Virus record (IMG/VR): IMGVR_UViG_3300010354_006595 | Span: 1 to 25,195 of that record | Strand: one strand, 5' to 3' | Length of the DNA: 25,195 nucleotides | DNA from: a virus | Part shown: positions 1 to 25,147 of the stretch, in pieces | Numbering within the stretch: the first letter of the stretch is position 1 | Layout: every line of letters starts with the position of its first letter | Notes under the pieces: model-generated | The model's database searches: none | Seen by the model: only the letters and a program-made list of their open reading frames with translations | What the model was told of the DNA's origin: nothing | Made by a program: the position numbers and the translations under genes

Positions 1-1168
1 AGACAGAAGGAACGATACCAGATGTCTTAGGTTGCCAGTATGCGTTCAGAGCATAACCATTAGAGGTCTGGTTAGCAGCAAGAATGCCACCATTACCAGC
101 AACACCGTTGTAGTTACGAACACGAGTTCCTGCAGTACCATAACGATAACCGAAGGCAGCACCATACTGAGGAGCACGATAACCGACCTGTGCCAGAGCA
201 TTCAGACCACCTTGTTCGTTGAACACACCAGTGGTAGAACTATCACCACTTTGAGCAACATAGTTCAGACCAGCAACGAATCCACCCTTCTTACCAGGTT
301 GGACATACTGAGCACCAAAACCAGCACCAGTTGCCTTGTTATAAACACCAGGAGCACCAGCGTTAGCAAAGAAGTCCAGAATTTCCGAACGATAAACGGA
401 AGGAATCCAGGTCATCTCGGTGTTACGAACCAGAGGACCAGCGGTGAGAGTCACACCCTTTGCCAGAGCAGGGAAACTATAGTACAGACGGTCAAGTTGC
501 ACTTGGTTTGCAAGAGATTCTGCCTTGTCCAATTTGAACAGAGAAGAAGAGGAACCAAAGGGTTGACTGGAGAAGTTACCAGAACGCAGACGGGTCTTGA
601 GTAGATCCTTACCAGTGAAGGAAGTATCAAAACTCAGACGAGCATCATAGTTAAATGCTGCATTACCAACGTTGGTATTGTTAGCAAGACGAGCACCAGC
701 AACACTACCCAGAACAAAGTTTACTTCACCTTTGAGTTTGGTAGTAGTGGAGAACTGAGTTGCTTGAAGCGCACCTACTTTAGTTTCCAGAGAAGCAACA
801 CGACCACGAATCACAGTGAGTTCATCACTAAACTCATTAGCAAGACGCTGAAGTTCATCAGTAACTTCGGTCACACGGTCAAGACAAGCATTCAGAAGGG
901 CTGCTGCTTCATAACGGGTCATGGCACGACCACCACCAAAGGTGCCGTTGGGATAACCAGCAACGCAACCATAACGTTCTACAAGGTTGCTGAGTGCCTG
1001 ATATGCCCAGTCAGTGGGTTTCACATCGGACAGTTGATTAATACTTGTAACCTGCTCAGAGGAAGTATATTGGTTGACTGCTGCCATGTTAAGGTCTGCG
1101 GCATTCGCAGCAACAGGAGCAACCATTCCCAGAGCAACAGGTGCAAGCATCAGTTGTTTGAGTTTCAT
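1..1168 (-). CDS. Cyanobacterial SLH/OprB-type porin (3' end beyond window)
   Basis: The first 389 or so codons of an outer-membrane porin are visible; the gene runs off the left edge. The start at 1168 gives a classic signal peptide: Lys-rich MKLK, hydrophobic core, and an Ala-x-Ala site near residues 21-23 (ANA/AD). Residues about 43-98 form an S-layer homology domain (DVKPTDWAYQALSNL, GYPNGTF, MTRYEAAALLNACLD), then a probable coiled coil (99-135), then a Gly/aromatic-rich beta-strand region like the SomA/SomB and OprB porins of cyanobacteria, where the SLH domain binds cell-wall polymer. Its base composition is visibly richer in GC than the neighbouring genes and it favours GGT, CGT and CTG codons, as a highly expressed cyanobacterial gene would. 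This suggests acquisition from a host. It has its own promoter. No Shine-Dalgarno sequence is apparent. The family call is strong; what a phage-borne copy does is unknown. Confidence 0.9.
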   Translation of the reverse strand, partial: MKLKQLMLAPVALGMVAPVAANAADLNMAAVNQYTSSEQVTSINQLSDVKPTDWAYQALSNLVERYGCVAGYPNGTFGGGRAMTRYEAAALLNACLDRVTEVTDELQRLANEFSDELTVIRGRVASLETKVGALQATQFSTTTKLKGEVNFVLGSVAGARLANNTNVGNAAFNYDARLSFDTSFTGKDLLKTRLRSGNFSSQPFGSSSSLFKLDKAESLANQVQLDRLYYSFPALAKGVTLTAGPLVRNTEMTWIPSVYRSEILDFFANAGAPGVYNKATGAGFGAQYVQPGKKGGFVAGLNYVAQSGDSSTTGVFNEQGGLNALAQVGYRAPQYGAAFGYRYGTAGTRVRNYNGVAGNGGILAANQTSNGYALNAYWQPKTSGIVPSV

Positions 1169-1265
1169 AAAAGTTTTTGTTTTTGTGCTAAACGACAAAT
1201 GTAGTTTTAGATAAAACCTCAGTATTTAGAGGTACTTAATCAAATCTTAAAAGACTATTAAGTTA

Positions 1266-1313
1266 ACGGTATCATAACATAACCGTATCAGTTGTGTCAA
1301 TTAAGAGACGGTT
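1266..1313. repeat. Three ACGGT/ACCGT half-sites around the porin promoter
   Basis: ACGGT at 1266-1270, AACCGT at 1281-1286 and ACGGTT at 1308-1313. The first two form an inverted repeat flanking the -10 box; the third is inverted relative to the second and lies just upstream of the -35. Such spacing could be a repressor or activator site, but 5-6 nt half-sites can arise by chance in AT-rich DNA. Confidence 0.35.
1271..1300 (-). promoter_or_regulatory. Sigma70-like promoter of the porin gene
   Basis: Read on the minus strand, a perfect TTGACA (1300-1295) is followed after 18 nt by TATGAT (1276-1271). Transcription would start near 1264, leaving a leader of about 95 nt before the porin ATG at 1168. 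The -35 box lies just beyond the stop codon of the methyltransferase gene (1312), so the porin can be expressed independently of the glycan cluster. Confidence 0.75.
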
Positions 1314-2466
1314 AATAATTTTCTCCTAAGTCTATTTGCACACTTGGAAGCATGGTAATAATTTTCCCCGTGTACTCAGGTCTCAATGATTGAATAATAT
1401 AATCTTTGAAATTATGAGCTAATACAATTAGATTTTCTGGTTGTTCTTTATAAAGTCTATCTCTTGTCACTACCTCAAATCCAGTTCCAGGTACAAACAT
1501 GCCCTGCTTGTTCTTTGTGTCATCTACCACATAAGCATCGGGAAAGTTCTTAGTACTAATACCAAGAGCGTTTAGATAAACACATCCCTTTGCTGCTGCT
1601 CCAAAGAATGCTGTACGACCAGGAAGATTTTCTATCCAGTTTTTATCTTTTAAAATCTTAAGATGCATACGACTCGCAGCATCAAAGAAATTAAACTTCT
1701 TTTCTGCTTTTAGATATTCATCTGCAGCACCAGTTGGATTGGAATGTTTCTTATGAGCAATCCAAAGACGCAAAGTACCACCATGAATGGTTTGTTCTTC
1801 TGTATTGATAATTCTCAATCCATACTTATCAAACAATTTAACTAGTGGAGTTACTAACCAATAGTAATAATGTTCGTGATAAAACTGATCAAATTGTAAT
1901 GTTTCAAAAGTTCTTAATGTATATGGAAACTCAAGAATCCATACACCTGTATCCGCAAGATGCTTTTGAACGGCTGAAAGAAATTTTTCTACTCCTGGAG
2001 TGTGCTGAAATACATTTGTAGAAGTAATAATATCTGCTTTAGGAAGTTCTAACTCTTCATTAAAGTAATCATTAACATACTCAATACCTGCTTCCAAATT
2101 TTCTTCACGGAAAGAGGCAGATGCATCTACATTAATCAACCGCAATGGGTCGGTGGATTGAGACCGAAACGCTTTCAGTAGCGTACCATCATTACCACCA
2201 ACATCAATGATAGTGTTGTGCTTTAAATGCTTAATACTATGCCACATCTTTTGGCAATGATAAACATATGGTTTATTTACAGCAGAATGGTACAAATATT
2301 TCATGTACAACTCTTCTGAAGGAATTGCCAAATCCAATTGAATCTTAAGATTTTCATCAATAACAGAACTCATTGGATATTGAGTTGCATCTAACGATTC
2401 TTGTTTTGTTTCAAACAAGTTATTTACCAATGGTTGAGTTCCAAGGTCAAGTAAAGTTTTATTCAT
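1312..2466 (-). CDS. SAM-dependent C-methyltransferase-like protein
   Basis: 384 aa; last gene of the glycan cluster. A class I methyltransferase core is seen from IIDVGGNDGTLLKAF (residues 86-100, SAM-binding loop). The C-terminal third (GRTAFFGAAAKGCVYLNALG, then a VVDDTKNKQG segment) matches the C-terminal domain of sugar C-methyltransferases, whose members methylate keto-deoxysugars bound to nucleotides, consistent with the dTDP-keto-sugar genes upstream. Those enzymes normally begin with a small zinc-binding domain with paired cysteines; here the N-terminus starts at the LGTQPLVNNLF part and lacks those cysteines, so the domain is trimmed. It begins directly after the stop codon of the GT25 gene. 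Substrate is inferred, not shown. Confidence 0.8.
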   Translation of the reverse strand: MNKTLLDLGTQPLVNNLFETKQESLDATQYPMSSVIDENLKIQLDLAIPSEELYMKYLYHSAVNKPYVYHCQKMWHSIKHLKHNTIIDVGGNDGTLLKAFRSQSTDPLRLINVDASASFREENLEAGIEYVNDYFNEELELPKADIITSTNVFQHTPGVEKFLSAVQKHLADTGVWILEFPYTLRTFETLQFDQFYHEHYYYWLVTPLVKLFDKYGLRIINTEEQTIHGGTLRLWIAHKKHSNPTGAADEYLKAEKKFNFFDAASRMHLKILKDKNWIENLPGRTAFFGAAAKGCVYLNALGISTKNFPDAYVVDDTKNKQGMFVPGTGFEVVTRDRLYKEQPENLIVLAHNFKDYIIQSLRPEYTGKIITMLPSVQIDLGENY

Positions 2467-3270
2467 CTATTGTTGATTGAAACTATTTTCTGTAATTCTT
2501 CCCAGATATGGATCATAATTCATGTAATCTGTAATGTCAATCTTAGCTCCATTTTGAGACCAAAAATTAGTCAATGCTTCATAATTTCCTTTGTGGTAAG
2601 CATCAACATGATCTGGATGTATTGATGAACCAAGTTCTGTTCTATAAAGTAAAAGAGGAATTGAAAAGGTATTTCCCGAATTATAAATCAAATCATCAGC
2701 AACAGCACGGGGTTTGCAACCATTGTCAAGTTTATATTTGTCACCACGAACATGAAACTTAATCAGTTTTTCCGCATGATGTCTAGTAATCAAATAACAT
2801 GCTGTTGAAAAGTCATTCACAAATCTTTTGTGAAGTTTTACATGGATATCTCCTGTGCAAATAATTGCAATCTGAACCACATCCCAATCATATGGAATGT
2901 GTGCATAGAAATCATCCCAGGTAAAGTTCCAAAATCTAACCAAATCTAGATTACAATCATCCTCCATAAAGATAGCATAAGGACTATCAGAGGTTTCATA
3001 CCAGTGCTTGATTGCTTTTAGGTGAGACGTGGTACAACCTATCTCTCCAGATGACATATTCTCTGGATACTTTCCAGAAATAATATCACTCAAATCATCT
3101 ACTCGACCATCATATGCAGAAATACGTTCATAGTTTTTTATTTCCCAATATTCAAATTGAGATTTCATGTAATTCCATCTTTCTGGTTGACCATCTAGAT
3201 TCACACAGTAAATTGGGCCAATATTTTTAAGTTTATAAGCAGACTTATTTTTATCTAATAGTTCGTTCAT
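2467..3270 (-). CDS. Glycosyltransferase family 25 (LPS biosynthesis type)
   Basis: 267 aa. The opening IYCVNLDGQPERWNYM (about residues 20-35), the GEIGCTTSHL motif (75-84) and the acidic FMEDDCNL (101-108, metal/nucleotide-sugar binding EDD) are the three signatures of GT25, the family of LPS galactosyl/glucosyltransferases such as LgtB/LpsA. It would transfer a hexose from a nucleotide sugar onto a growing glycan in the cytoplasm. Its ATG overlaps the stop codon of the upstream dehydrogenase gene by 4 nt (ATGA), indicating translational coupling. Donor and acceptor cannot be told from sequence. Confidence 0.85.
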   Translation of the reverse strand: MNELLDKNKSAYKLKNIGPIYCVNLDGQPERWNYMKSQFEYWEIKNYERISAYDGRVDDLSDIISGKYPENMSSGEIGCTTSHLKAIKHWYETSDSPYAIFMEDDCNLDLVRFWNFTWDDFYAHIPYDWDVVQIAIICTGDIHVKLHKRFVNDFSTACYLITRHHAEKLIKFHVRGDKYKLDNGCKPRAVADDLIYNSGNTFSIPLLLYRTELGSSIHPDHVDAYHKGNYEALTNFWSQNGAKIDITDYMNYDPYLGRITENSFNQQ

Positions 3271-4379
3271 AAATCAATCCAAAATACTTCTTCACAAGGA
3301 ATACCAAAAATAATTCTATCATCACATTGAGACCTTACATAATCTTCAACAACATAAACTTTATATCCTTGATCTAGTAAATCTAAACATAAACGATATT
3401 GTTGACTTTCAGTAAGAATATCCGTACCCTCTTTATAAGAAATATAATGAAAACAGAATGGAAGATTTCTTTCATTCTTTTTGGTAAAGTATTCTGTCAG
3501 GAATCTTGCATGTTCATTATTAAAATCATCCGTTGTCATTCCAAGATTATATTCCAATCCAAGTTTCTTTGCATATGCAGCAAAAGAACGATTGTCTCTT
3601 GGTAAGCACGGGCCACCAAATCCATATCCATACTTCAAATACTTGTTTCCAACCCTAGTGTCAGCACCAATTGCCTCTAATACTGTTTTAATTTCAGTCT
3701 CTAAACCAGCAAGAGTCATTACTTCTCCAACCATATTTGCATAACTAATTTTTGTGGTTAGGAAACAATTCACTGCCAACTTCACAAGCTCAGCAGCAGT
3801 TGTACTCATCGTATAAACTTTAGGTTCAGTGATTTGTATCTTGCTATAGATTTCTTTAATGACCTCTAGGTGTTGACCCTCACCACCAATCAGAACCATA
3901 TCAGCATACTGAAGGTCTTTAATAATTGAACCCTGTGCAATAAACTCTGGATTGTAATACACATCAATACCATATGCATTCAGTTGTGTTTGGAACATCT
4001 CACAATCACCAGGATTAGTGGTGCAACCAACTATAAAACTTTTTCCATTTAGGGGAAATTCGCAAGACTGAATATCATCAATTACTTTCCATACTGCACT
4101 TATATCATAACTTCCATCAGGCAATGAGGGTGTTGCTACAAGCGTGTAAATAATGTCACATTGTTTGATGACTTCTACATTACTCAGAACTGCATTAAAG
4201 TTCTTAGCATCATCAAGCATCTCCGCAACTTGTGGTTCATTCGTGTTGATGATGCGATTATTCAGTCCAATCACATAATCATCTCTACAATCAGAAACAA
4301 TTACTTCATATCCTGCCTTTTCCAACAGAAGAGCAAAGCAGATGCCAAGTCTTCCTGCGCCGATAAGTCCAATCTTCAT
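3267..4379 (-). CDS. UDP-glucose/GDP-mannose dehydrogenase family protein
   Basis: 370 aa. Family members oxidise the C6 hydroxyl of a nucleotide sugar to a uronic acid, consuming two NAD+. Seen: Rossmann motif GLIGAGRLG (4-12), VATPSLPDGS (81-90), NPEF with Glu145, AAELVKLAVN with Lys200 and Asn204, and the active-site GFGGPCLPRD with Cys258. All catalytic residues are in place. At 370 aa the protein is shorter than usual (390-450), mainly in the C-terminal domain. The ATG at 4379 starts exactly at the Rossmann fold and overlaps the upstream stop by 4 nt; a longer upstream reading frame is discounted. UDP-glucose is the likeliest substrate, but GDP-mannose or a HexNAc is possible. Confidence 0.85.
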   Translation of the reverse strand: MKIGLIGAGRLGICFALLLEKAGYEVIVSDCRDDYVIGLNNRIINTNEPQVAEMLDDAKNFNAVLSNVEVIKQCDIIYTLVATPSLPDGSYDISAVWKVIDDIQSCEFPLNGKSFIVGCTTNPGDCEMFQTQLNAYGIDVYYNPEFIAQGSIIKDLQYADMVLIGGEGQHLEVIKEIYSKIQITEPKVYTMSTTAAELVKLAVNCFLTTKISYANMVGEVMTLAGLETEIKTVLEAIGADTRVGNKYLKYGYGFGGPCLPRDNRSFAAYAKKLGLEYNLGMTTDDFNNEHARFLTEYFTKKNERNLPFCFHYISYKEGTDILTESQQYRLCLDLLDQGYKVYVVEDYVRSQCDDRIIFGIPCEEVFWIDL

Positions 4380-5149
4380 TTTAACTTTGCTGTAATCAGT
4401 AAGTGCCAACCAAGGTTTTTCTCAAGAGCCCTAAACATTTCGGGAGGCATTGAATCAAACCATGGTTGTTTGACATATTCTCCTTTCTTGTAAGGTTCTA
4501 TTTGATAAGGAAAGATATGGTCTTGTTCTATGGAAAGAACTTCATATCCATCTAACAATTCTACCACATCTTGTTTAGTGTATGTATTTGCAATCGGACA
4601 ACCATACTGTGCTTCTGGTTGATCCAGTCCTGCCTCAATCATATAGTTCTTCCAAGAATCTTTTGCATAAAGCATAATCTTAAGAACACTGTTCTCATTC
4701 ATATACTTTTTTGCTTCAGAAACAATCTTTTCTGGATGTGGACTATGATGAATCACTCCAAAAGAGTAAATCAAATCATAAGTTTCTACAGGAACAAACG
4801 ACGAAAGTTCCTCTGCATTGCCGAGATAGAACTGTCCTGGTTGATTATAAAGACTGAATCTCTGTCTAGCAATTTCAAGACTTTCTTCAGACAGTTCTAC
4901 TCCGGTATAATCTGCACCATTAAATGGAAAGTTAATTCCAACCGTACCAAGACCACAACCAATCTCCAGAACTTTCTTACCTTCCCATTGAGGGAATCTA
5001 GTGAACATCAGAATATGATTTTCAACAAAGAACTTTTTCTTCGTGACTTCATTGAAATATTCTAATGTACCAACTTCTTTAGAGGAATGACGAATGTTAC
5101 AAGGACGGTCATTCCAGAACTTTTTTACTTCATCAATCGTTGCTGTCAT
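4376..5149 (-). CDS. Class I SAM-dependent methyltransferase
   Basis: 257 aa. A UbiE/type-11 methyltransferase fold: motif I VLEIGCGLGTVG (60-71), an acidic end of strand 2 (GVELSEESLEIA), and the YDLIYSFGVIHHSPHPEKI segment typical of motif II/post-II. It probably methylates a sugar hydroxyl or a small carrier. The ATG overlaps the NAD synthetase stop by 4 nt and the stop overlaps the next ATG likewise, so it sits in a coupled operon. No features specify the substrate. Confidence 0.8.
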   Translation of the reverse strand: MTATIDEVKKFWNDRPCNIRHSSKEVGTLEYFNEVTKKKFFVENHILMFTRFPQWEGKKVLEIGCGLGTVGINFPFNGADYTGVELSEESLEIARQRFSLYNQPGQFYLGNAEELSSFVPVETYDLIYSFGVIHHSPHPEKIVSEAKKYMNENSVLKIMLYAKDSWKNYMIEAGLDQPEAQYGCPIANTYTKQDVVELLDGYEVLSIEQDHIFPYQIEPYKKGEYVKQPWFDSMPPEMFRALEKNLGWHLLITAKLK

Positions 5150-5904
5150 AGTTTAAATGTAGGAATAGGATTCATCTTGTGTGCATTTTGTTTATTAAAC
5201 TTTTTGAGAATATCAACTGCAGGCCCAGTTCCATTCTCCATTGCCTCTTCAAGTTCAACATAGGAAGCACCGATTTGATTTTCATCAGTTCTTCCATCTT
5301 CCCAGAGACCATCTGTAGGTTGTGCATCAATAATACGTTGATCTACACCAAGATGCTTTCCAAGTTCCCATACTTCAGTTTTATAGAGGTCTGCGATAGG
5401 AGCAATGTCAACTCCACCGTCACCATATTTAGTATAGAATCCAACACCATAATCTTCAACTTTGTTTCCAGTGCCCACTACAATACCACCCACAGTTCCA
5501 GCAACTTGATACAAAGTTACCATACGAATACGTGATTTTGTATTTGCATTGGCAAGAGGATTACTTGTATATTCATTGCTATCAGTCCACCAATTCAGAC
5601 TATGGACAAACTTCTCATACACACCAGAAAGTTCGACACGAATTCTAGTAACATTGGAATATTTTACTTCCAATGCTTTAGTATAATCGTCGGAAAGTCG
5701 GTCATTATCAAGGCTTGAAAGCAAAGGCATTGAGAGTACATACGTCGGTAGTCCAGTCTCAGCACATAGAGTAGAAACTACGCCAGAATCAATACCACCA
5801 GACACACCAACAACAAGTGCTTTAATGTTGTTATCAGAAACATAATCCTGAATCCACGATACAATCCGCGTCTTCAGTTCTTCATAGTTAGAAACTCGAT
5901 TCAT
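5146..5904 (-). CDS. nadE: NH3-dependent NAD+ synthetase
   Basis: 252 aa, the usual length of the ammonia-dependent form. It would adenylate and amidate nicotinate adenine dinucleotide to NAD+. Seen: the pyrophosphatase loop GVSGGIDSG (33-41), VVGTGNKVED (142-151), and GFYTKYGDGGVDIAPIADLY (155-174), which is diagnostic of NadE rather than of other PP-loop amidotransferases. There is no glutaminase domain. The ATG at 5904 overlaps the GT11 stop by 4 nt; an upstream TTG is not needed. Its place amid at least six NAD(P)-binding sugar-nucleotide enzymes suggests it raises NAD+ supply for them during infection; that is inference. A divergent role in sugar amidation is less likely given the conserved NaAD-binding segment. 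Confidence 0.9.
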   Translation of the reverse strand: MNRVSNYEELKTRIVSWIQDYVSDNNIKALVVGVSGGIDSGVVSTLCAETGLPTYVLSMPLLSSLDNDRLSDDYTKALEVKYSNVTRIRVELSGVYEKFVHSLNWWTDSNEYTSNPLANANTKSRIRMVTLYQVAGTVGGIVVGTGNKVEDYGVGFYTKYGDGGVDIAPIADLYKTEVWELGKHLGVDQRIIDAQPTDGLWEDGRTDENQIGASYVELEEAMENGTGPAVDILKKFNKQNAHKMNPIPTFKL

Positions 5905-6749
5905 AATACAATCCAATCAGGACAATAAAGGTCTTTTGTATCTTTGTCCGCATACGCTGGCCCAAACCACATACGAGGAGCAATCACTTTTTTGTTGGGA
6001 TTAGCAATGAGCCATGCACCCCACCAACTCATGGAACTATTAGCAATAATAGCATGAGAACACAAAGACATCAAGCACAAATCTGCATAGGGTGTAAAAG
6101 AACCATCTGCATATTTTTGTTGGGGTTCAGAAATTAAAAATCTATCACCAGAGAAAAACTCTTGTTCCTTGACCCAATCTACAGAATCAGAAAACACAAT
6201 CACAGGTTGGTCGTCATCAAACTCTGCAAGTGCTTTTTCGTAATACTCAATTGGTTGTACAGGGTGTTGGTCTCCACATTGAGTATAAGACCACTTAAAT
6301 CCACGGGGGTCTGTAAGATTGGGGTCTCCACGACGAACATGAAGCATGATAGGTTCCCCTTCAACGGAATCTATCATCCCTTTACATGGCCCTAAATGTT
6401 CGTCATGAAAAGTAAAGTCTTTACGAATCTCATCGGAAATGTGTTGAAAGTATTTTTCCGATTGAAAAAATCCATAAAGACTTACGTTATCAGGACAGTT
6501 CTCAAACAGTTCTTCAGAAAAATGAAAGTGAGGTTCCTGAACATATTGAAATTCCTCAATCACATTCTCATTCCTTTCTGGTGAAAGTTTAAAGCATTCA
6601 TGAAGACTATAGTTTTCAATTCCTTTTCGTTCTGATGGAGGAATGCACCAGTCATATCCATGTTTAGCAGCAATACCACGGAGGGCTGCATACTCAAACA
6701 TTTGATTACCAAGTCTTCCCAGACTTCCCAAATGATTAAATGCTAACAT
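5901..6749 (-). CDS. GT11 alpha-1,2-fucosyltransferase-like protein (copy A)
   Basis: 282 aa, normal for the family. Seen: N-terminal GRLGNQMFEYAALRGIA (11-27), GFFQSEKYF (93-101), the GDP-fucose-binding HVRRGD (137-142) and the C-terminal SSMSWWGAWL. These are the family's ordered motifs. It would transfer L-fucose (or another sugar from a GDP donor) to a galactose-type acceptor. It closely resembles the protein at 8295-9098 along its whole length, so the two are paralogues. It overlaps the upstream glycosyltransferase by 14 nt and the downstream nadE by 4 nt. With the GDP-mannose 3,5-epimerase in the cluster, GDP-L-galactose is an alternative donor. Confidence 0.88.
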   Translation of the reverse strand: MLAFNHLGSLGRLGNQMFEYAALRGIAAKHGYDWCIPPSERKGIENYSLHECFKLSPERNENVIEEFQYVQEPHFHFSEELFENCPDNVSLYGFFQSEKYFQHISDEIRKDFTFHDEHLGPCKGMIDSVEGEPIMLHVRRGDPNLTDPRGFKWSYTQCGDQHPVQPIEYYEKALAEFDDDQPVIVFSDSVDWVKEQEFFSGDRFLISEPQQKYADGSFTPYADLCLMSLCSHAIIANSSMSWWGAWLIANPNKKVIAPRMWFGPAYADKDTKDLYCPDWIVL

Positions 6750-7551
6750 ATTTCTTAAGATAGTCTTGTTGTGAATAATATTGTTTAAGTTGTTCTTTGT
6801 TCATCAATTGAATCCTTTCCCACTCTTGCATATTAAATGTCATGTGAGGATTGCTAAACCAAGAGTTTTCTCCTCTTGAGTGTTCTAAATGATAAACATA
6901 ATCATTAATTCGTCCTACATTATAATCCAAAGTTGTGAATCTGTAAAACCTTTCTTTATCTTCTGGCGCATATGCTTTAAAATTTTCATTCTCCATGCCA
7001 CCATCAATATAAACTTGGCGATTAAAAAATTGAACCCAACCAAAATCAGATGTGTGAAGATTAGAATGTCTGTTCAGTATCTCATAGTTTCTAGTTTGTA
7101 AGAAATCAGAAACAATCTCATCTGTTGCTCTGACTTGATATTGATACATCCCCTGACCATATGGATAGATTACATCATGAGTATGATGAAGGATGGATTG
7201 ATATGCTTCATGATATGAGTCTAGTGGCAGCAAAACATCGCAGTCATAATTCACAACGATTTCTGTCTTTGCCTCTACAATCATTTCATTCAGAACTTTC
7301 TGACGATGAAAGAGTGATTCATTACTCTTTTCAAAAATGTGAAAGATGCGAGTATTAACATCATAAAACTCTTTTAGCACAGGAACAACATCTCTAATAA
7401 AAATAGATTCAGAATCTACTTCTTTGATAATGATTTTTGTATCAAAGTTGTCTATTAAAAATGCAGTGGTTGTAATAACATTACGCAACCTATCTTGAGA
7501 TTCAATACGAATCGGAATGATAAATGTTGCTTCTGATAAATCAATTTTCAT
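6736..7551 (-). CDS. GT2-like glycosyltransferase with galactosyltransferase-type C-terminus
   Basis: 271 aa. The N-terminus (TFIIPIRIESQDRLRNV) is a GT-A fold start, with VVNYDCDVLLPL (99-110) supplying the DxD metal site. The segment GWVQFFNRQVYIDGGMENEN (171-190) followed by APEDKERFYRF resembles the C-terminal acceptor-recognition region of beta-1,4-galactosyltransferases and chondroitin-polymerase-type enzymes. Function: addition of a hexose or HexNAc to the glycan. Its start at 7551 is supported by AGAGG 7 nt upstream. It overlaps the preceding gene by 11 nt. Confidence 0.8.
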   Translation of the reverse strand: MKIDLSEATFIIPIRIESQDRLRNVITTTAFLIDNFDTKIIIKEVDSESIFIRDVVPVLKEFYDVNTRIFHIFEKSNESLFHRQKVLNEMIVEAKTEIVVNYDCDVLLPLDSYHEAYQSILHHTHDVIYPYGQGMYQYQVRATDEIVSDFLQTRNYEILNRHSNLHTSDFGWVQFFNRQVYIDGGMENENFKAYAPEDKERFYRFTTLDYNVGRINDYVYHLEHSRGENSWFSNPHMTFNMQEWERIQLMNKEQLKQYYSQQDYLKKYVSI

Positions 7552-8302
7552 CTGGATACCTCTTCTGATTAATAAAGAAGTCTTTATGCTTTACTACCAA
7601 GTAATTTATTTCTTTACTATCAACCATCCAAGACCCTTCTGGATGCTCAATCATAGCATCATATTGCATTGTGCTACTCGTTCGATCTTCATGTTCTCGA
7701 TTAGCAATCAAAATGTCTGGGATAATATGAGGCATTCCATACTCAAATCTCATACGATGATAGAATTCAGTATCAACTAAGAGTTTAAGATTAGTGTCCA
7801 AATATATTTTTGCATCATTTAAAATAGCAACACAAGATGGACTACCAAGCAAATTACGTCCTTCTAACATCATATCACACCACCGTGGCACACAATCACG
7901 ATGAGTTTCAACACCATCTGTGGTATGAGTGAATCCATGAAATAACCACTTACAATTTGTCTCATCAAATCCTTGCTTGATTTTTTCAAGGGATTTGTTA
8001 TGAACAAATAAGTCATCTTGCATAATCAACTTCAGAATTCTACCCTCAGCATTTTCCATCACACAATTGATATTAGATGCTTGGAATCCACGGTCATTTG
8101 GATTCTTCATGTAGGTAATATCAAATTCTTTGCTACTCTCTTCACAAAAATCTTGAATGACGTTATCTACACTGTGATCAGATACAACAATCTCAAAGTC
8201 TTGGAATGTTTGTTTCCGCAATCCATCAAAAATATCAGTGAGATATTTTACACCTTGTCCTTTGAATTCATAAGTGGGAATACAAACTGAAATTTCAGGC
8301 AT
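7541..8302 (-). CDS. GT2 family glycosyltransferase
   Basis: 253 aa. PEISVCIPTYEFKGQG at the N-terminus, FEIVVSDHS (36-44) and LIMQDDLF (92-99, the QDD/DxD equivalent) define the GT-A family 2 fold. The start at 8302 is chosen because GGAGAG lies about 5 nt upstream and the protein then begins on the first beta strand; an upstream extension in this frame would overlap the GT11 gene by over 100 nt and has no conserved sequence. It sits between the two paralogous GT11 genes together with the gene at 6736. Donor sugar unknown. Confidence 0.85.
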   Translation of the reverse strand: MPEISVCIPTYEFKGQGVKYLTDIFDGLRKQTFQDFEIVVSDHSVDNVIQDFCEESSKEFDITYMKNPNDRGFQASNINCVMENAEGRILKLIMQDDLFVHNKSLEKIKQGFDETNCKWLFHGFTHTTDGVETHRDCVPRWCDMMLEGRNLLGSPSCVAILNDAKIYLDTNLKLLVDTEFYHRMRFEYGMPHIIPDILIANREHEDRTSSTMQYDAMIEHPEGSWMVDSKEINYLVVKHKDFFINQKRYPDEN

Positions 8303-9098
8303 CAATTCTCTCCCAACGTTCAGGAACCAAATCTTTATCATCCAACCCTGCATCTGGCCCAAACCAATTCGTCGGAGCAATAACATGTTCAGAACCAGAC
8401 AACCATGCACCCCACCAACTAAATGAACTGTTCACAATAATCTGATGAGAACACATTGACATTAGACACATATCATGAATGTTGTCGCTAGAATCAGAGA
8501 CAAGGAACCTATCGTCAGAAAAGAACTCCTCACTCTTTACCCAATCAGGTTCATCAGAAAAAACAATCACAGGAAGTTCTGGAAACTTTGCCAGTGCCTT
8601 TTCATAATAACTATTAGGTTGAACTGGATGGTACTTTGACTTCACAACTTGGTCTGTGCGACGAACGTGCAGTGAGATTGCTTTTCCATCAGGAACAATC
8701 TGGTCAAAGATTTCTTTACATGTATTCCAAACATCATCTCTCCACACAAAATCATCACGAATCTCTTGTGCAATATGAGCGAAGTATTTTTCTGACTGGA
8801 AGTATCCATAAAGATTGCGATTGTCTTCACAGTTATTGAATAGTTCCTCATCAAAAGTAAAACTTGCTTCCTGAACGTATGGTGCAGGAAACAGATTCAC
8901 TTCTTTAACAGATGGCAACTTAAATGCCATGAAGAGTTTATGTTGATTCTCTTCATCATGAAACTCATCATCATTCTCTGGTCCAGGAGGAATACAGAAA
9001 TCAAATCCACGGTTTGCTGCAATACCTCTAGTTGCAGCATACTGGAACATTTGATTACCGAAACGTCCATTTTTACCTAGGTGATTGTGTCCTATCAT
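8295..9098 (-). CDS. GT11 alpha-1,2-fucosyltransferase-like protein (copy B)
   Basis: 267 aa. Motifs in order: GRFGNQMFQYAATRGIA (11-27), GYFQSEKYF (98-106), HVRRTD (144-149) and SSFSWWGAWL. It is a clear paralogue of the protein at 5901-6749, sharing long stretches such as HPVQP, YYEKALA, PVIVFSD and the CLMS/CSH region, with an extra acidic insert near residues 42-52. The change of the residue before Asp in the donor motif (G to T) and the different acceptor regions suggest a distinct linkage or acceptor. Four nt separate it from the upstream methyltransferase gene; its 3' end overlaps the next gene by 8 nt. Confidence 0.88.
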   Translation of the reverse strand: MIGHNHLGKNGRFGNQMFQYAATRGIAANRGFDFCIPPGPENDDEFHDEENQHKLFMAFKLPSVKEVNLFPAPYVQEASFTFDEELFNNCEDNRNLYGYFQSEKYFAHIAQEIRDDFVWRDDVWNTCKEIFDQIVPDGKAISLHVRRTDQVVKSKYHPVQPNSYYEKALAKFPELPVIVFSDEPDWVKSEEFFSDDRFLVSDSSDNIHDMCLMSMCSHQIIVNSSFSWWGAWLSGSEHVIAPTNWFGPDAGLDDKDLVPERWERIDA

Positions 9099-9102
9099 GT
9101 TC

Positions 9103-9723
9103 TCACTTTAAATCAAATTCAACAAATCCTGTCCCACAAGTTCCATATGGAGAACTTGGACAATTAACCCCATGACCAATATTCGTTAAATCCATTTTGA
9201 TATCATCATCAAAACAATTCCAAAATTGCTCCATTGGTTCATTTATGTGAATATCATCTAAAAGTAAAAGTCCAGACCAATCTTTTTCAATCAAAAATTT
9301 CATGAACTCTGTCTCTTGAGAACCTGTATGATCTGTATCAATTATTATCATTTTAACTTTATCCCACTCAATGGAATCATCTTCCATAAAGTTCATAATT
9401 TTAAATTGAATATTTTCTTTTTTAGGTGTAGTTGCGTCCACTCTTTGAATATGATCATTAACGTCATAACTTATGACTTGATTTTTCGAATTAAAAGATG
9501 CTGCTATAGCTGAACTGCCAAATAGGGTTCCAATATCCAAAATGATGCCATCGTCAAAAGTAGAAGACATGTAAGCATAAAGTCTATATGGAACATTTCC
9601 AGCAGGACTGTAGCAAGAGTCAGTTATAACGTCTTCAGGTATGTTAGATTCCTCAAGTATTGGAAGCATATAACTCATATCTAAATCTTCAAGTTGTGAT
9701 AATTCTGGAATAATAGTTTTCAT
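9103..9723 (-). CDS. Class I methyltransferase (Methyltransf_24-like)
   Basis: 206 aa. ILDIGTLFGSSAIAAS (61-76) is a SAM-binding loop, VISYDVND (83-90) ends strand 2, and MIIIDTDHTGSQETEFMKFL plus GLLLLDDIHI (151-160) match the Asp-rich motifs of the TylF/Methyltransf_24 group, many of which methylate sugars or small metabolites with a metal ion. The ATG overlaps the upstream stop codon by 4 nt. Substrate is not evident; it could O-methylate a sugar of the neighbouring glycan. Confidence 0.7.
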   Translation of the reverse strand: MKTIIPELSQLEDLDMSYMLPILEESNIPEDVITDSCYSPAGNVPYRLYAYMSSTFDDGIILDIGTLFGSSAIAASFNSKNQVISYDVNDHIQRVDATTPKKENIQFKIMNFMEDDSIEWDKVKMIIIDTDHTGSQETEFMKFLIEKDWSGLLLLDDIHINEPMEQFWNCFDDDIKMDLTNIGHGVNCPSSPYGTCGTGFVEFDLK

Positions 9724-10394
9724 AGTTGAGTTCCCTCTGGAAGAAAATAATGAAACCCAAATGGTTTAATTCCTTGAGTTTCTGGAAGTGGTCGTTCATG
9801 GGAGAATCTTGCTGCAACCTCAATCGGTGCAATCTTGCATCCAAGTGCCTCATAGATATGGCGATTATGAACGCAAATATTACCATCTTCTGAAGTAAAT
9901 CCTACATTCATATGCTTATAGAAGTCCCCCCAGTTTACATCAAAATGAATGTATGCGTGTTTAGGAACATCTAATAGTTTCTTGCTACGGAAAGAGAATC
10001 CACCATTACCAACACGATGAGGTTTTCCCCAAGGGTCTAGGTAAGCGTCTTTTGCAAGAGCCCAAGGTGCTCCAATATAATCATAGTTAAACCAATCATT
10101 GTCCCACTTCTCTGGATTGATTACAAAACCATCTGGTTGTACTAACAAACAATAGTCCGTATCAATATGATTGGTCAAATTATAGAGACAGTAATAGTTG
10201 TAATCATGTATGGATTTAATCTCATAACACTCTGAAAACTCAATACCTTTTGGAAGATTGCCAGGGTCTTTATGTGTGATAAGTTTAACTGCACCAAACT
10301 TAATGCTCCTCATGCTATGCTTCAGAGCAAAAAGAGCACCCTCTACGTTGTTTGATGAGATGCAGAATAATGTTACATTAGGTAGTTCAATCAT
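9720..10394 (-). CDS. DUF5672 glycosyltransferase-like protein
   Basis: 224 aa. The order VTLFCISSNN (7-16), CLLVQPDGFVINPEKW (82-97), YDYIGAPW (104-111) and RVGNGGFSFRSKKLL (127-141) is the pattern of DUF5672, a GT-A-like family found in LPS and capsule clusters; the QPDG segment stands where a DxD motif would. The reaction is not established for the family. The start at 10394 has AAGGTGA a few nt upstream and overlaps the preceding stop by 4 nt. Confidence 0.75.
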   Translation of the reverse strand: MIELPNVTLFCISSNNVEGALFALKHSMRSIKFGAVKLITHKDPGNLPKGIEFSECYEIKSIHDYNYYCLYNLTNHIDTDYCLLVQPDGFVINPEKWDNDWFNYDYIGAPWALAKDAYLDPWGKPHRVGNGGFSFRSKKLLDVPKHAYIHFDVNWGDFYKHMNVGFTSEDGNICVHNRHIYEALGCKIAPIEVAARFSHERPLPETQGIKPFGFHYFLPEGTQL

Positions 10395-11326
10395 AAATCA
10401 CCTTCATAGATGTTGGATGTTACTTTGTATTCTTCCCATTCTACCCTACATTCATCGGGTTTGAAAAGTTTTCCTTGCCTATCCATATAGTGCGTTGGAT
10501 AACTATATATGCTACAACCAAGAGACCACCAACCTTGTGAGCGATTAAAGTCAAACCAATACTTAGGGGCAATACAATATTCTAAAGTTTCACTTAACCA
10601 TAGAGGCCAGCAAGCAAATGTTGATGCACCACAAATCACATATTTTGCATTTTTAAGTGCAACAAAATCCCAGGCAACACTTTCATGATAAGCAGGATAC
10701 TCTGGAAGAACTTGATTTGCAGTTCTCACATCTTCAGTAACAATTGCAAACTCCATTTTTGGATTACACTCAAGCATTGCTTTGATTGCATTGTCATAAT
10801 ATGATCTAGGAAGCCAACATCCTGGATTACCAATCATATCCGTTCCACGAAAGTTGATGATGCAAATATTATTTCCATAAGTATCCATATGTTCATACTC
10901 TGGTTTTATTCGCAACCAATCCTTCACCAAATCAAGTTTATCATAAAAATAATCTTCAGATTGAAATATACCATCAATTTTTGTATTATCTTTAATCTTA
11001 AATAAATTTTTATCAGTCAATCGAATATCAGTTTTTAATCGAGGATCGGTATGTAGTCCATGTCGATATTCTACATAATAGTTGTCAATACCATTTGGCA
11101 GTTCTGTAGGAGGGCCACCAGGAGAACTAGAACCTCCAATTACCTCACGTCCCAAGTCTAGATTCATAAAGTAGACACCTTCAACATTAAAGCGTGGGTC
11201 ACCTAAATTTTCTCTACCAGAGATACCAAACTCATAACCAAGATTATATGCAAGCATTCTGGTTGTTACATAAGCAAAAAGTTGATTACCAAAGCCTTGC
11301 CCATGATAAAGCTCAGTAATAATCAT
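10391..11326 (-). CDS. Divergent GT11/fucosyltransferase-like protein
   Basis: 311 aa. The N-terminus YHGQGFGNQLFAYVTTRMLA (7-26), FQSEDYF (121-127) and GASTFACWPLWLS give the GT11 layout, but the donor motif is NFRGTD (158-163) instead of HxRRxD: the histidine is replaced by Asn and the second Arg by Gly. The fold and N-terminal loop argue for the same superfamily as the genes at 5901 and 8295, but the donor may differ. A Gly/Pro/Ser insert (about 63-78) is unusual. It is linked to its neighbours by 4-nt overlaps on both sides. Confidence 0.72.
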   Translation of the reverse strand: MIITELYHGQGFGNQLFAYVTTRMLAYNLGYEFGISGRENLGDPRFNVEGVYFMNLDLGREVIGGSSSPGGPPTELPNGIDNYYVEYRHGLHTDPRLKTDIRLTDKNLFKIKDNTKIDGIFQSEDYFYDKLDLVKDWLRIKPEYEHMDTYGNNICIINFRGTDMIGNPGCWLPRSYYDNAIKAMLECNPKMEFAIVTEDVRTANQVLPEYPAYHESVAWDFVALKNAKYVICGASTFACWPLWLSETLEYCIAPKYWFDFNRSQGWWSLGCSIYSYPTHYMDRQGKLFKPDECRVEWEEYKVTSNIYEGDL

Positions 11327-12042
11327 TCCAGTAATACCTTCATAGTATCAGAAACTTCAAAATTACAAGACCACATAGTATGCATAAATCTCTCTACTAG
11401 ATGTGTTTCTCCCGATAAAGTATGATGTTCAACCATCTTTTTTATATTTTGATAGAATACTTTATCATACTTTAAAATATTTGCTTTAGGAACAATATAA
11501 TTACCACCTGGAGCAAACCTAACGTACTTAGGATGAATTGGATTTTTAAAACAAAATGATACGAATTCGTTGTATGATTTAAAATATTTTGTGGGATGAT
11601 TAGGATGATTTAAGTACCAACTATCATTATACTCCATCCAACCACCATCAGGAGAAAACATAGCATATCCGTTTTGGAGTGCTAGTTGATTTTGGTCATG
11701 ATATTGCCAATCTTCAATTGCAGTAAAACATACATTATCAATTATTTTCTCAAAATATTCTTTACGAACATGTCTAGGAACAACATTACCTTTTATCAAT
11801 ATCAAGACATCTGGAAGACAATCATAATGATCTAAGATATATTTACAAAAACTTGTGATACTATATCCAAGATTTTCTAACCTTTCAATCGTTGCCTTAT
11901 CTTTATATTCTTCAAGAGTTTGTTCTCCTTTATTGTATATAAAGGTATTTTCTTTATTAAAATTTTTTCTTTTATCTATTAATTTAAATAACCATTCCAA
12001 ATCATTATTATGACAATTAATTACTAAACTTTTGGTTATCAT
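11323..12042 (-). CDS. DUF3431-like protein
   Basis: 239 aa. Starts with SLVINCHNNDLEWLFKLI and ends with a block including FAPGGNYIVPKANIL, FYQNIKKMV and ETHLVERFMHTMW, which resembles the DUF3431 family, found next to glycosyltransferases and suspected to be glycosyltransferases themselves. LPDVLILIKGN occupies the place of the family's 'FLHG' segment. The ATG at 12042 is preferred over an upstream TTG; GGGGA lies about 8-9 nt before it and it overlaps the previous stop codon by 4 nt. This gene and the next two are visibly more AT-rich than the rest of the cluster. Function unproven. Confidence 0.6.
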   Translation of the reverse strand: MITKSLVINCHNNDLEWLFKLIDKRKNFNKENTFIYNKGEQTLEEYKDKATIERLENLGYSITSFCKYILDHYDCLPDVLILIKGNVVPRHVRKEYFEKIIDNVCFTAIEDWQYHDQNQLALQNGYAMFSPDGGWMEYNDSWYLNHPNHPTKYFKSYNEFVSFCFKNPIHPKYVRFAPGGNYIVPKANILKYDKVFYQNIKKMVEHHTLSGETHLVERFMHTMWSCNFEVSDTMKVLLE

Positions 12043-12608
12043 TTTTTGATTCCCCAAAAGTATAAATCACAATGATTCAATTCAATACTAAACTCATATT
12101 GAGAAAATAGTTCATCAACATTAACACATTCTCGGATATCTTCTTCTGTTAAGTTTTTATAATATTCATTATCCCAGTTTTCACGCAAAACATTCGGCAT
12201 AGTTTTCCAATCCTCATGTTTCGTTTTGCAATAATTTTCAAGAGATTTAACTCCATGAACTGGTCTTCCAGTAGTAGCACATGTGAACAAGAACAATCCA
12301 CCAGATTTTAAAATCCTAATCGCGTTCTGAATACTTTCTTTATAAAAAGGATTATGTTCCCAACACTCACATGAAATGATAGTATCATAAGATTCATCAG
12401 GAGCATCATAATCTTGTGCTGGACAAACAATATCTACCCCAGGGCCTTCTCCTAAATCTAATCCGAAAAATTCACAATTTTCAAATAAAAATTCTTCATT
12501 CCCATTTACATCAAAGGAACCAATGTCTAAAACTTTTTTATTTTTAAAACTGTCTGGAAATTTTTCTTTTACTTGATTACAAAAAATCCACTGCTCTTTA
12601 TGTGCCAT
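12039..12608 (-). CDS. SAM-dependent methyltransferase
   Basis: 189 aa. VLDIGSFDVNGNE (26-38) is the SAM-binding loop, FFGLDLGEGPGVDIV (47-61) includes the ribose-binding Asp, and YDTIISCECWEHNPFY (74-89) is motif II as in type-11 methyltransferases; ILKSGGLFLFTCAT completes the fold. Small, with no accessory domain. It starts with a TAATG overlap (1 nt) after the GT47-like gene and probably methylates a sugar or carrier made by the cluster. Confidence 0.75.
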   Translation of the reverse strand: MAHKEQWIFCNQVKEKFPDSFKNKKVLDIGSFDVNGNEEFLFENCEFFGLDLGEGPGVDIVCPAQDYDAPDESYDTIISCECWEHNPFYKESIQNAIRILKSGGLFLFTCATTGRPVHGVKSLENYCKTKHEDWKTMPNVLRENWDNEYYKNLTEEDIRECVNVDELFSQYEFSIELNHCDLYFWGIKK

Positions 12609-22607: not shown

Positions 22608-22636
22608 ATTGTAGAGGACCTGGAACTCTATGTCAA
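22608..22636 (-). promoter_or_regulatory. Sigma70-like promoter of the tRNA-Ile/CAU pair
   Basis: Minus strand: TTGACA (22636-22631), 17 nt, TACAAT (22613-22608). The -35 hexamer overlaps the TGA stop of the antitoxin-like gene. Transcription would begin near 22601, just ahead of tRNA-Ile at 22593. Confidence 0.75.
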
Positions 22637-22857
22637 CAACCTTCTTCATGGTCAGTGTGTATTCGTATCACATCATCATCCACATTAGACTCTTCAAACA
22701 CATGCACTACTTCATTATAAGGAACTATAACTGCGTTCCTTTCTCCATCTGTTATGATAAATGATTCACCATTTTCAACTCTTTCTATCAAAGTATCAAA
22801 ATTTGTTTGAAACTCTTCAACTGTAAATCTTTGAAGTTCGTCAATTTCTTGATTCAT
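22633..22857 (-). CDS. Phd/YefM-type antitoxin-like protein
   Basis: 74 aa. LQRFTVEEFQTNFDTLIERV (9-28), then ENGESFIITDGERNAVIVPY (29-48) matches the DNA-binding Phd/YefM fold: a short strand, helix of the 'eaRanl..ll..v' type, and a hairpin ending in the '.aVlvs' strand. The acidic tail (52-73) would be the toxin-neutralising part. Such proteins normally sit next to a RelE/Doc-type toxin; none is found here, since both flanks are tRNA genes. The ATG at 22857 is chosen because longer frames run into tRNA-Pro. Possible roles: neutralising a host toxin, or acting as a repressor. Confidence 0.72.
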   Translation of the reverse strand: MNQEIDELQRFTVEEFQTNFDTLIERVENGESFIITDGERNAVIVPYNEVVHVFEESNVDDDVIRIHTDHEEGC

Positions 22858-22880
22858 TTTTTCATAAATTATTTTATGAG

Positions 22881-22954
22881 TCGGGCATAAAGGATTTGAA
22901 CCTTTGACCTTTCCGCCCCAAACGGAACGCGCTACCAAACTGCGCTAATGCCCG
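22881..22954 (-). tRNA. tRNA-Pro(UGG)
   Basis: 74 nt: acceptor CGGGCAT/ATGCCCG, discriminator A, D-stem GCGC/GCGC, anticodon stem TTCCG/CGGAA with loop TTTGGGG (anticodon UGG), variable AGGTC, T-arm AAAGG-TTCAAAT-CCTTT. No CCA is encoded. A strong promoter ends 11 nt upstream. Confidence 0.95.
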
Positions 22955-24612: not shown

Positions 24613-25047
24613 TCACTGTAAATGCGATCTTAACATCCAAACAAACTTACCATGAGATTCCATTAGATCTTGAACTAAGTTTGCAGTTGCATATTGTTTT
24701 TGCTCTTCTGCTTCCTCTGAAATTTCTTGCATCAATTCACAAAACTTTTCATTATTTTCAAGAAGTTCTTGAAGCATTTCTTTCGCTCCAGTTGAACTTG
24801 CTGCTTCTTTGATTTTAGTTACTTCAAGCATTCTCGAAAGAGAACTCAAAGGTTTTACATTCAAATAACGCATATGCTCTGAGAGACGGTCAATCTCTTC
24901 AAACATAGTCTCATACTGACCACCGAACAATTGGTGCAGTTGAGTAAAGTCTTCACCTACGACATTCCAATGAAATGCCCAAGTTTTATGAAATAAAACA
25001 AAAAGCGATGACTGTGCATCACTTAGTAGTTTATAAAGTTTTTCCAT
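24613..25047 (-). CDS. Dps-like ferritin
   Basis: 144 aa, typical of Dps core domains. Dps proteins form 12-subunit shells that bind DNA and oxidise and store iron, protecting DNA from peroxide. Seen: FHWNVVGEDF with His26, LH with His38, EEIDRLSEHMR with Asp53 and Glu57; the spacing equals the ferroxidase residues of characterised Dps. The acidic residue expected four positions after His38 is Gly42, so iron-binding chemistry may be altered. There is no Lys-rich N-terminal tail for DNA binding. The ATG at 25047 is used; a longer frame enters the tRNA-Val gene. It is preceded by a late-promoter-like sequence and a weak GAG ribosome site. Confidence 0.85.
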   Translation of the reverse strand: MEKLYKLLSDAQSSLFVLFHKTWAFHWNVVGEDFTQLHQLFGGQYETMFEEIDRLSEHMRYLNVKPLSSLSRMLEVTKIKEAASSTGAKEMLQELLENNEKFCELMQEISEEAEEQKQYATANLVQDLMESHGKFVWMLRSHLQ

Positions 25048-25064
25048 TATACTCTTTTTATTTT

Positions 25065-25072
25065 TATTTATC
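25065..25072 (-). promoter_or_regulatory. Possible T4-type late promoter (GATAAATA)
   Basis: GATAAATA on the minus strand, 17 nt ahead of the Dps-like ATG, matches the NATAAATA late element of cyanomyoviruses and lies just after tRNA-Val. Position and match are the same as for the element before the cytidylyltransferase gene (21609-21616). Confidence 0.4.
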
Positions 25073-25075
25073 AAG

Positions 25076-25147
25076 TGGGCGATGACGGATTCGAACCGCC
25101 GACCTACTCCGTGTAAAGGAGGCACTCTACCGCTGAGTTAATCGCCC
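25076..25147 (-). tRNA. tRNA-Val(UAC)
   Basis: 72 nt: acceptor GGGCGAT/ATCGCCC, discriminator A, D-stem ACTC/GAGT, anticodon loop TTTACAC (anticodon UAC, codon GUA), variable AGGTC, T-arm GGCGG-TTCGAAT-CCGTC with a G-U pair. The outermost anticodon-stem pair is C-T and does not match. No CCA is encoded. Confidence 0.94.

Follow-up and report, generated by a model that had tools for sequence, protein, structure and literature searches.

The porin gene at the left edge of the window

The window analyzed here comprises an entire IMG/VR virus record (25,195 bases) and represents a fragment of a cyanomyovirus genome. At its left edge lies a porin gene, preceded by several candidate control elements and by the last genes of a glycan island (Table 1). 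Cyanomyovirus matches, four tRNA genes of the cyanophage kind and PHROG families were found in the window; the gene thus sits in viral and not in chromosomal DNA, as the original prediction had presupposed.

Table 1. Positions of the porin gene, its leader elements and neighboring genes in the window.
Feature	Position	Strand	Remarks
Porin coding sequence, 5' 389 codons	2..1168	-	ATG at 1168, open to the left edge
Signal peptide, approximately residues 1-24	1097..1168	-	Read from the translation; lipophilic, MKLKQLMLAPVALGMVAPVAANA
SLH domain, residues 47-89	902..1030	-	PF00395, 1.5e-8, 34.9 bits, cut-off 20.8
Coiled-coil linker, residues 101-137	758..868	-	Helix 85-137 of modeled homologue L003 (AlphaFold)
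Beta-barrel, first 10-11 of 16 strands	2..745	-	AlphaFold model of L003, 16 strands
AT-rich block before the start codon	1169..1198	-	TTGTCGTTTAGCAC...TTTT; without Shine-Dalgarno word, without Yfr1-pairing site
Leader hairpin with T4-late-like word CTAAATA	1216..1233	-	ACCTC-TAAATACT-GAGGT; putative role
Sigma70-type promoter-like site	1271..1300	-	TTGACA-18-TATGAT, extended TG; recurs in homologous leaders
C-methyltransferase	1312-2466	-	Glycan island, upstream of porin; PF08484
GT25 glycosyltransferase	2467-3270	-	Glycan island, upstream of porin; PF01755
tRNA-Val and Dps-like ferritin	24613..25147	-	Border site A in related genomes (S-SRM01 and L009 compared)

The domains of the translated frame place the gene product among SLH/OprB porins of the SomA/SomB kind, here borne by a phage, and this part of the original prediction was confirmed by three profiles. 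Besides the SLH match, the OprB family (PF04966) was detected above its cut-off with 5.1e-11, and the NCBIfam model por_somb (NF033921) scored 242 bits (8.8e-72; cut-off 100) for the truncated window porin and 289 bits for the full-length relative L003. A chance reading frame is ruled out by the 294 IMG/VR stretches that encode relatives in a first scan, a number that rose to at least 567 with a broader query. The frame is 94-95% identical to IMG/VR homologues. The full-length homologues measure 482-510 amino acids and every one examined was intact; thus, approximately 106 C-terminal residues, equivalent to the last five to six strands, lie past the contig edge. The protein had been described as full, which holds for the signal peptide, the SLH domain, the coil and approximately two-thirds of the barrel, but not for these last codons. 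The end of the gene is cut by the contig edge, and nothing marks the gene as broken.

The fold was modeled with AlphaFold from a 59-row alignment headed by L003 (pLDDT 76, with low confidence in the SLH part) and consists of a long helix followed by 16 strands. The complete barrel and a C-terminal aromatic residue (the chain ends ...TKFTF) are present in L003 and other homologues, while the window copy stops at the contig edge. Structure matches to the L003 barrel comprised OprB (4gey, Z 26.2), OmpM1 (8bym, Z 21.0) and many general porins. In the sequence search, OmpM1 was the only and best solved relative (5.8e-16, residues 24-138). This Veillonella protein likewise combines an SLH domain, a linker and a 16-strand barrel; however, it is a cellular protein of a diderm Firmicute and only about 15% identical in the structural match. 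The SLH domain of the window porin, similar in sequence to that of OmpM1, is expected to bind peptidoglycan-linked polysaccharide.

Kinship with host porins and exchange of the barrel

With 47.4% GC against 36.1% in the rest of the window, the porin is indeed richer in GC than its neighbors, as originally noted. However, this richness does not mark a foreign gene, since the GC content at third codon positions (GC3) is 0.34, which lies near that of other phage genes (0.24-0.30) and well below the 0.69-0.90 of host porins. The excess is accordingly attributed to amino-acid make-up, a recent host origin is ruled out as its cause, and the porin has long resided in phages. Outside metagenomic records, a full-length porin with 78% identity to the window porin is encoded by the isolate Synechococcus phage S-SRM01 (QPX48248), while most cyanophage isolates in the searched collection have none. 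The best host porin reached approximately 61% identity (201 genomes searched, family of WH 5701). A scan with a host porin sequence for host-type porins elsewhere in viral contigs returned one marginal place only.

A tree with host porins and phage homologues, as the original prediction had called for, sets the phage porins apart from the host clades. In the maximum-likelihood tree, 60 phage rows formed one group with an SH-aLRT support of 100 and a stem of 0.43. When 109 phage rows were analyzed unrooted, two phage clades were obtained, one of 99 rows that includes the window and S-SRM01 (group 1) and one of 10 rows (group 2). Judged by their sequences, all phage barrels therefore fall into two phage-only clades well apart from host porins. 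The scattering of phage rows in a first all-row tree rooted on L092 was discarded in favor of this unrooted result.

The existence of two clades is explained by a chimeric barrel. Group 2 has the phage signal peptide, SLH domain and coil in common with group 1, and its signal peptide is 86% identical to group 1 compared to 66-69% to the best host. Its barrels, on the other hand, are 57 to 32% identical to those of group 1, compared to 48-72% for host porins. On the DNA level, group-2 genes and their group-1 partners are mostly 0.75-1.0 identical over codons 1-140 and approximately 0.4-0.7 identical thereafter, whereas the group-1 background stays at 0.67-0.89 throughout. The junction is sharp and lies near codon 140, at the end of the coil and hence at the coil-barrel border, and the group-1 partners differ between group-2 members. 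According to the simplest reading of these identities, the phage chassis received a second host barrel at this border, and its N-terminal part has recombined further since.

In comparison with cyanobacterial porins of the SomA/SomB type (NF033921), the phage proteins show the same domain order, lengths and fold, and Cyanobiaceae porins are 49-61% identical. They differ by their separate clades, their phage-like third codon positions and the two exchanged barrel types. The median dN/dS of 0.20 indicates that the phage porin is kept intact under purifying selection. The constriction loop L3 and charged strand residues are conserved and the outer loops vary, likewise among hosts. Outer-loop variation in phage porins did not exceed that of host porins of equal strand divergence; an excess of loop divergence was thus not seen, and the loops give no direct sign of receptor-driven selection. 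Shortened loops were also ruled out, as the lengths are close to those of the sister host clade, and the SLH domain and coil do not change in length across all phage and host porins. The net barrel charge is +9 in group 1 and -13 in the sister hosts. A shift of the phage pore towards anion selectivity was nevertheless rejected, since outer loops and turns account for the difference, strand and L3 charge match those of hosts, and the group-1 total is inside the host range or only slightly outside it.

Two genomic sites and the control of the porin transcript

The porin was found at two sites. At site A, it follows tRNA-Gly(tcc) and is itself followed by tRNA-Val, Dps and the glycan island downstream; at site B, which is the arrangement of the window, the final glycan genes (GT25 or C-methyltransferase) immediately precede it. 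Site A accounted for 78 loci and site B for 51, while nine remained unclear. The last glycan genes of the window match phrog_2835 with 2.5e-126, and the order GT25, C-methyltransferase, porin recurs in L058 and L149. Nine of the ten group-2 porins occupy site B. In S-SRM01, the porin resides in site A between tRNA-Gly and tRNA-Val, with Dps between it and the glycan genes. The 248 kb record L204, which contains locus L068 and is of type B, has an empty site A with 210 bases from tRNA-Gly to tRNA-Val. Of 39 records, G207 had two porin copies; the other 38, which include four of 234-249 kb, had a single one. In the window, site A would start past the right edge, and a second porin just beyond it is possible given the two copies in G207, but the single copies in the other 38 records and the empty site of L068 speak against it.

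Mapped on the tree, the site labels require at least 25 changes compared to 32 for shuffled labels. A fixed porin-glycan operon is thereby ruled out, and the two sites with their switching, the empty site A and the single copies assign the porin to the borders of the island and not to a glycan operon. The predicted neighborhood of porin and glycan cluster is therefore regular, at either edge of the island, but the implied pairing is loose, as the many switches and the S-SRM01 copy beyond Dps illustrate. A wcaG cis-regulatory RNA was detected where the glycan island begins in L002 (7590), L087 (18515), L052 (16189), L029 (14598) and L009 (19016) with 98-104 bits; in the window, none reached the gathering threshold. 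The window further encodes a Phd/YefM-like antitoxin frame (22633-22938, phrog_375) adjoining tRNA-Pro. The cyanomyovirus record L204 carries 28 tRNA genes and a tmRNA-like call at 1930-12343, and a PhotoRC-II RNA motif (82 bits) was located near its porin at L068 17295-17392.

With regards to transcription, a private promoter had been predicted for the gene. The promoter-like site of the window alone did not rise above shuffled sequences. Among 55 distinct homologous leaders, however, 36 contain a sigma70-type site with at least 10 of 12 matches compared to 1.6 expected, and the prediction was thus borne out by conservation. T4-late-like TAAATA words (ATAAATA or CTAAATA) occur in 39 of these leaders (4.6 expected), and 43 have a GTC[CG]T[AT]TA block within the last 45 nt before ATG. 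In the extended block, GTC[CG]T[AT]TAGTAC, the nucleotides are conserved and the reading frame is not, often together with a short upstream ORF (MSFST.../MSYST*); perhaps it is a translation-start element. None of the 55 leaders has a Shine-Dalgarno word, compared to 13 of 50 other S-SRM01 genes. Some leaders also contain a hairpin with a constant loop (CNCAAYUAYUY), which 41 of 133 porin leaders share (25 distinct ones; e.g., L124, L002 and L087), though not that of the window. It is positioned 47-93 nt before the porin ATG and is nearly absent from the remainder of the 2.1 Mb of loci. Its stem covaries (0.554 compared to 0.241 for shuffled sequences, with 42 cells changed on both sides), it has no Rfam match at the gathering threshold, and it may be a new cis-acting element of phage porin transcripts.

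The leaders of host porins differ from those of the phage porins, which lack both a Yfr1 site and a Shine-Dalgarno word. At the ribosome-binding site, host porins have GTGTGAGGA or TGTGAGGAGT, which is complementary to the conserved word of the small RNA Yfr1 (motif given in PMC2518516), and 30 of 31 host leaders pair with Yfr1 over 9-10 nt. In phage porin leaders, Watson-Crick pairing above 6 nt was found in 0 of 98, which equals the level of shuffled sequences. Six host genomes (approximately 17 Mb in total) contain the arrangement TGTGAGGA-N2-8-ATG 29 times, of which 16 are before porins; it is rare before other host genes and hence not a general Shine-Dalgarno sequence. Rfam detects Yfr1 in five of these six genomes. 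In Prochlorococcus MED4, Yfr1 targets two porins (PMC6778093), and its targeting of porins has also been demonstrated by reporters in E. coli (PMC6974561). In a search for a phage-encoded mimic of Yfr1, no exact ACTCCTCACAC was present in seven phage records.

The phage leaders share ancestry, and the absence of the site consequently counts as few events. From these leaders, we infer selection for escape from Yfr1, although the absence may also be a by-product of a leader that was replaced at acquisition. Translation of the phage porin is predicted to be insensitive to Yfr1. In Synechococcus sp. WH 5701, the Yfr1 word itself was observed in the gap that separates two tandem porin genes, on the strand that encodes them (G001:C8:39762-39772), and it could base-pair in cis with the ribosome-binding site of the porin.

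Proposed role of the phage porin

Our main reading, to which we assign a probability of roughly 0.6, is that a working, peptidoglycan-tethered phage porin would be made early and outside Yfr1 control and would remodel the envelope of the infected cell. Host RNA polymerase would transcribe the gene early, and the mRNA would be translated while Yfr1 represses host porins. The protein would be exported and inserted into the host outer membrane as a trimer, with its SLH head bound to peptidoglycan-linked polysaccharide. Together with the adjoining glycan genes, it would then remodel the outside of the infected cell while a porin-type channel is kept.

The chief gain is most likely an altered surface that competing phages do not recognize; continued uptake of inorganic nutrients would be a second or joint gain. 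The barrel exchange, the conserved L3 with variable outer loops and the missing Yfr1 site fit such remodeling, and both uptake and receptor replacement would be compatible with them. Our leaning towards the surface is founded on the fact that host porins already supply a channel and that barrels were exchanged while the anchor was kept. However, existing host porins persist in the membrane, so the phage porin could only dilute them. A bolder version, in which a fixed SLH-anchoring chassis with a cassette barrel acts as an early, Yfr1-free porin switch and the phage-chosen porin and glycans repel competing phages, is tentative and less likely than not.

A less likely but serious competitor of the main reading is a purely auxiliary metabolic role, in which the phage porin would keep up diffusion of iron, phosphate or nitrate during host shut-off and the surface change would be incidental. 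The NCBIfam family bears the name 'iron uptake porin', L3 and charged strand residues are host-like, and host porin transcripts rise during cyanophage infection in the dark, which the authors read as nutrient limitation (PMC5082946). Plain supply, on the other hand, needs no replacement of a barrel on a fixed chassis, and the pore charge has no consistent shift. Moreover, the membrane already contains host porins, which stay stable throughout a latent period, so resupplying the same channel would gain little.

An envelope stabilizer is an unlikely alternative to remodeling: here, the SLH head would tie the outer membrane to peptidoglycan and delay lysis or vesiculation, with the channel being secondary. 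The constant length of SLH domain and coil in all phage and host porins agrees with a tether, as do the label 'outer membrane attachment porin' given to OmpM1, which among solved structures is closest in sequence, and the SLH domain that marine S-PM2 and S-CREM1 retain with a small C-terminal domain. A pure tether, however, needs neither a barrel under purifying selection nor a conserved L3. Very improbable is a passenger of the plasticity island, i.e., a host gene acquired by chance and without benefit; movement between two island sites and absence from most isolates in the collection would suit it, but all full-length copies are intact with a dN/dS of 0.20 and phage-like GC3, the promoter is conserved, and four records of 234-249 kb hold a single copy. 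Host DNA mislabeled as viral, suggested by host kin of up to approximately 61% identity, is practically dismissed by the cyanophage tRNAs, PHROG families and isolate matches of the record, by the separate clades and, conclusively, by the complete isolate S-SRM01 that carries the porin.

Phage-borne porins as such are known from lambdoid prophages. The present family is also on record in S-SRM01, where it is annotated only as 'porin' and occupies site A in contrast to site B in the window; the main text of the S-SRM01 paper does not mention it (PMC8557907). PA-2 is a temperate lambdoid coliphage, and its Lc is an OmpF-type barrel without SLH domain. Its Lc/NmpC together with ipeX likewise constitutes a phage-borne porin with regulation that favors the phage over the host porin, and this unrelated pair is the closest functional precedent, by analogy with which the cyanophage porin would work. 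In PA-2, a phage small RNA acts on the host porin, whereas in the cyanophage, the porin mRNA lacks the site of a host small RNA. ipeX stems from the phage porin transcript and lowers OmpC (PMC12197685), and the review reporting this was the only result of our literature search for phage-encoded porins. Within the searchable literature, we found no description of an SLH-anchored phage porin, its abundance, its two-site mobility, the barrel exchange or the absence of the Yfr1 site, nor any account of T4-like cyanophages commonly carrying, under selection, a cyanobacterial porin anchored to peptidoglycan.

With its missing Yfr1 site, the porin mRNA is a case in which escape of a phage transcript from a host small RNA can be tested directly, and this small RNA may control the same protein family. 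The constant anchor with an exchanged barrel makes the purpose testable as well, as a barrel swap should have different consequences under uptake and under exclusion. Through a barrel swapped during evolution and a messenger without the Yfr1 site, an infected cell may receive a surface pore chosen by the virus. The alternative porins selected by phages are also a lead to the surface receptors of freshwater picocyanobacteria, about which little is known.

Finally, SLH proteins of the outer-membrane type are likewise borne by S-CREM1 ('iron uptake porin', L088 4935-5813) and S-PM2 ('putative S-layer protein', L089 4932-5771), phages of marine and estuarine origin. Unlike the porins, these proteins are short (approximately 280-292 amino acids), and their small C-terminal domain, which is probably a small beta-barrel, does not match the 16-strand OprB barrel. 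They are 66% identical to each other and, among SLH envelope proteins of phages, constitute a second class.
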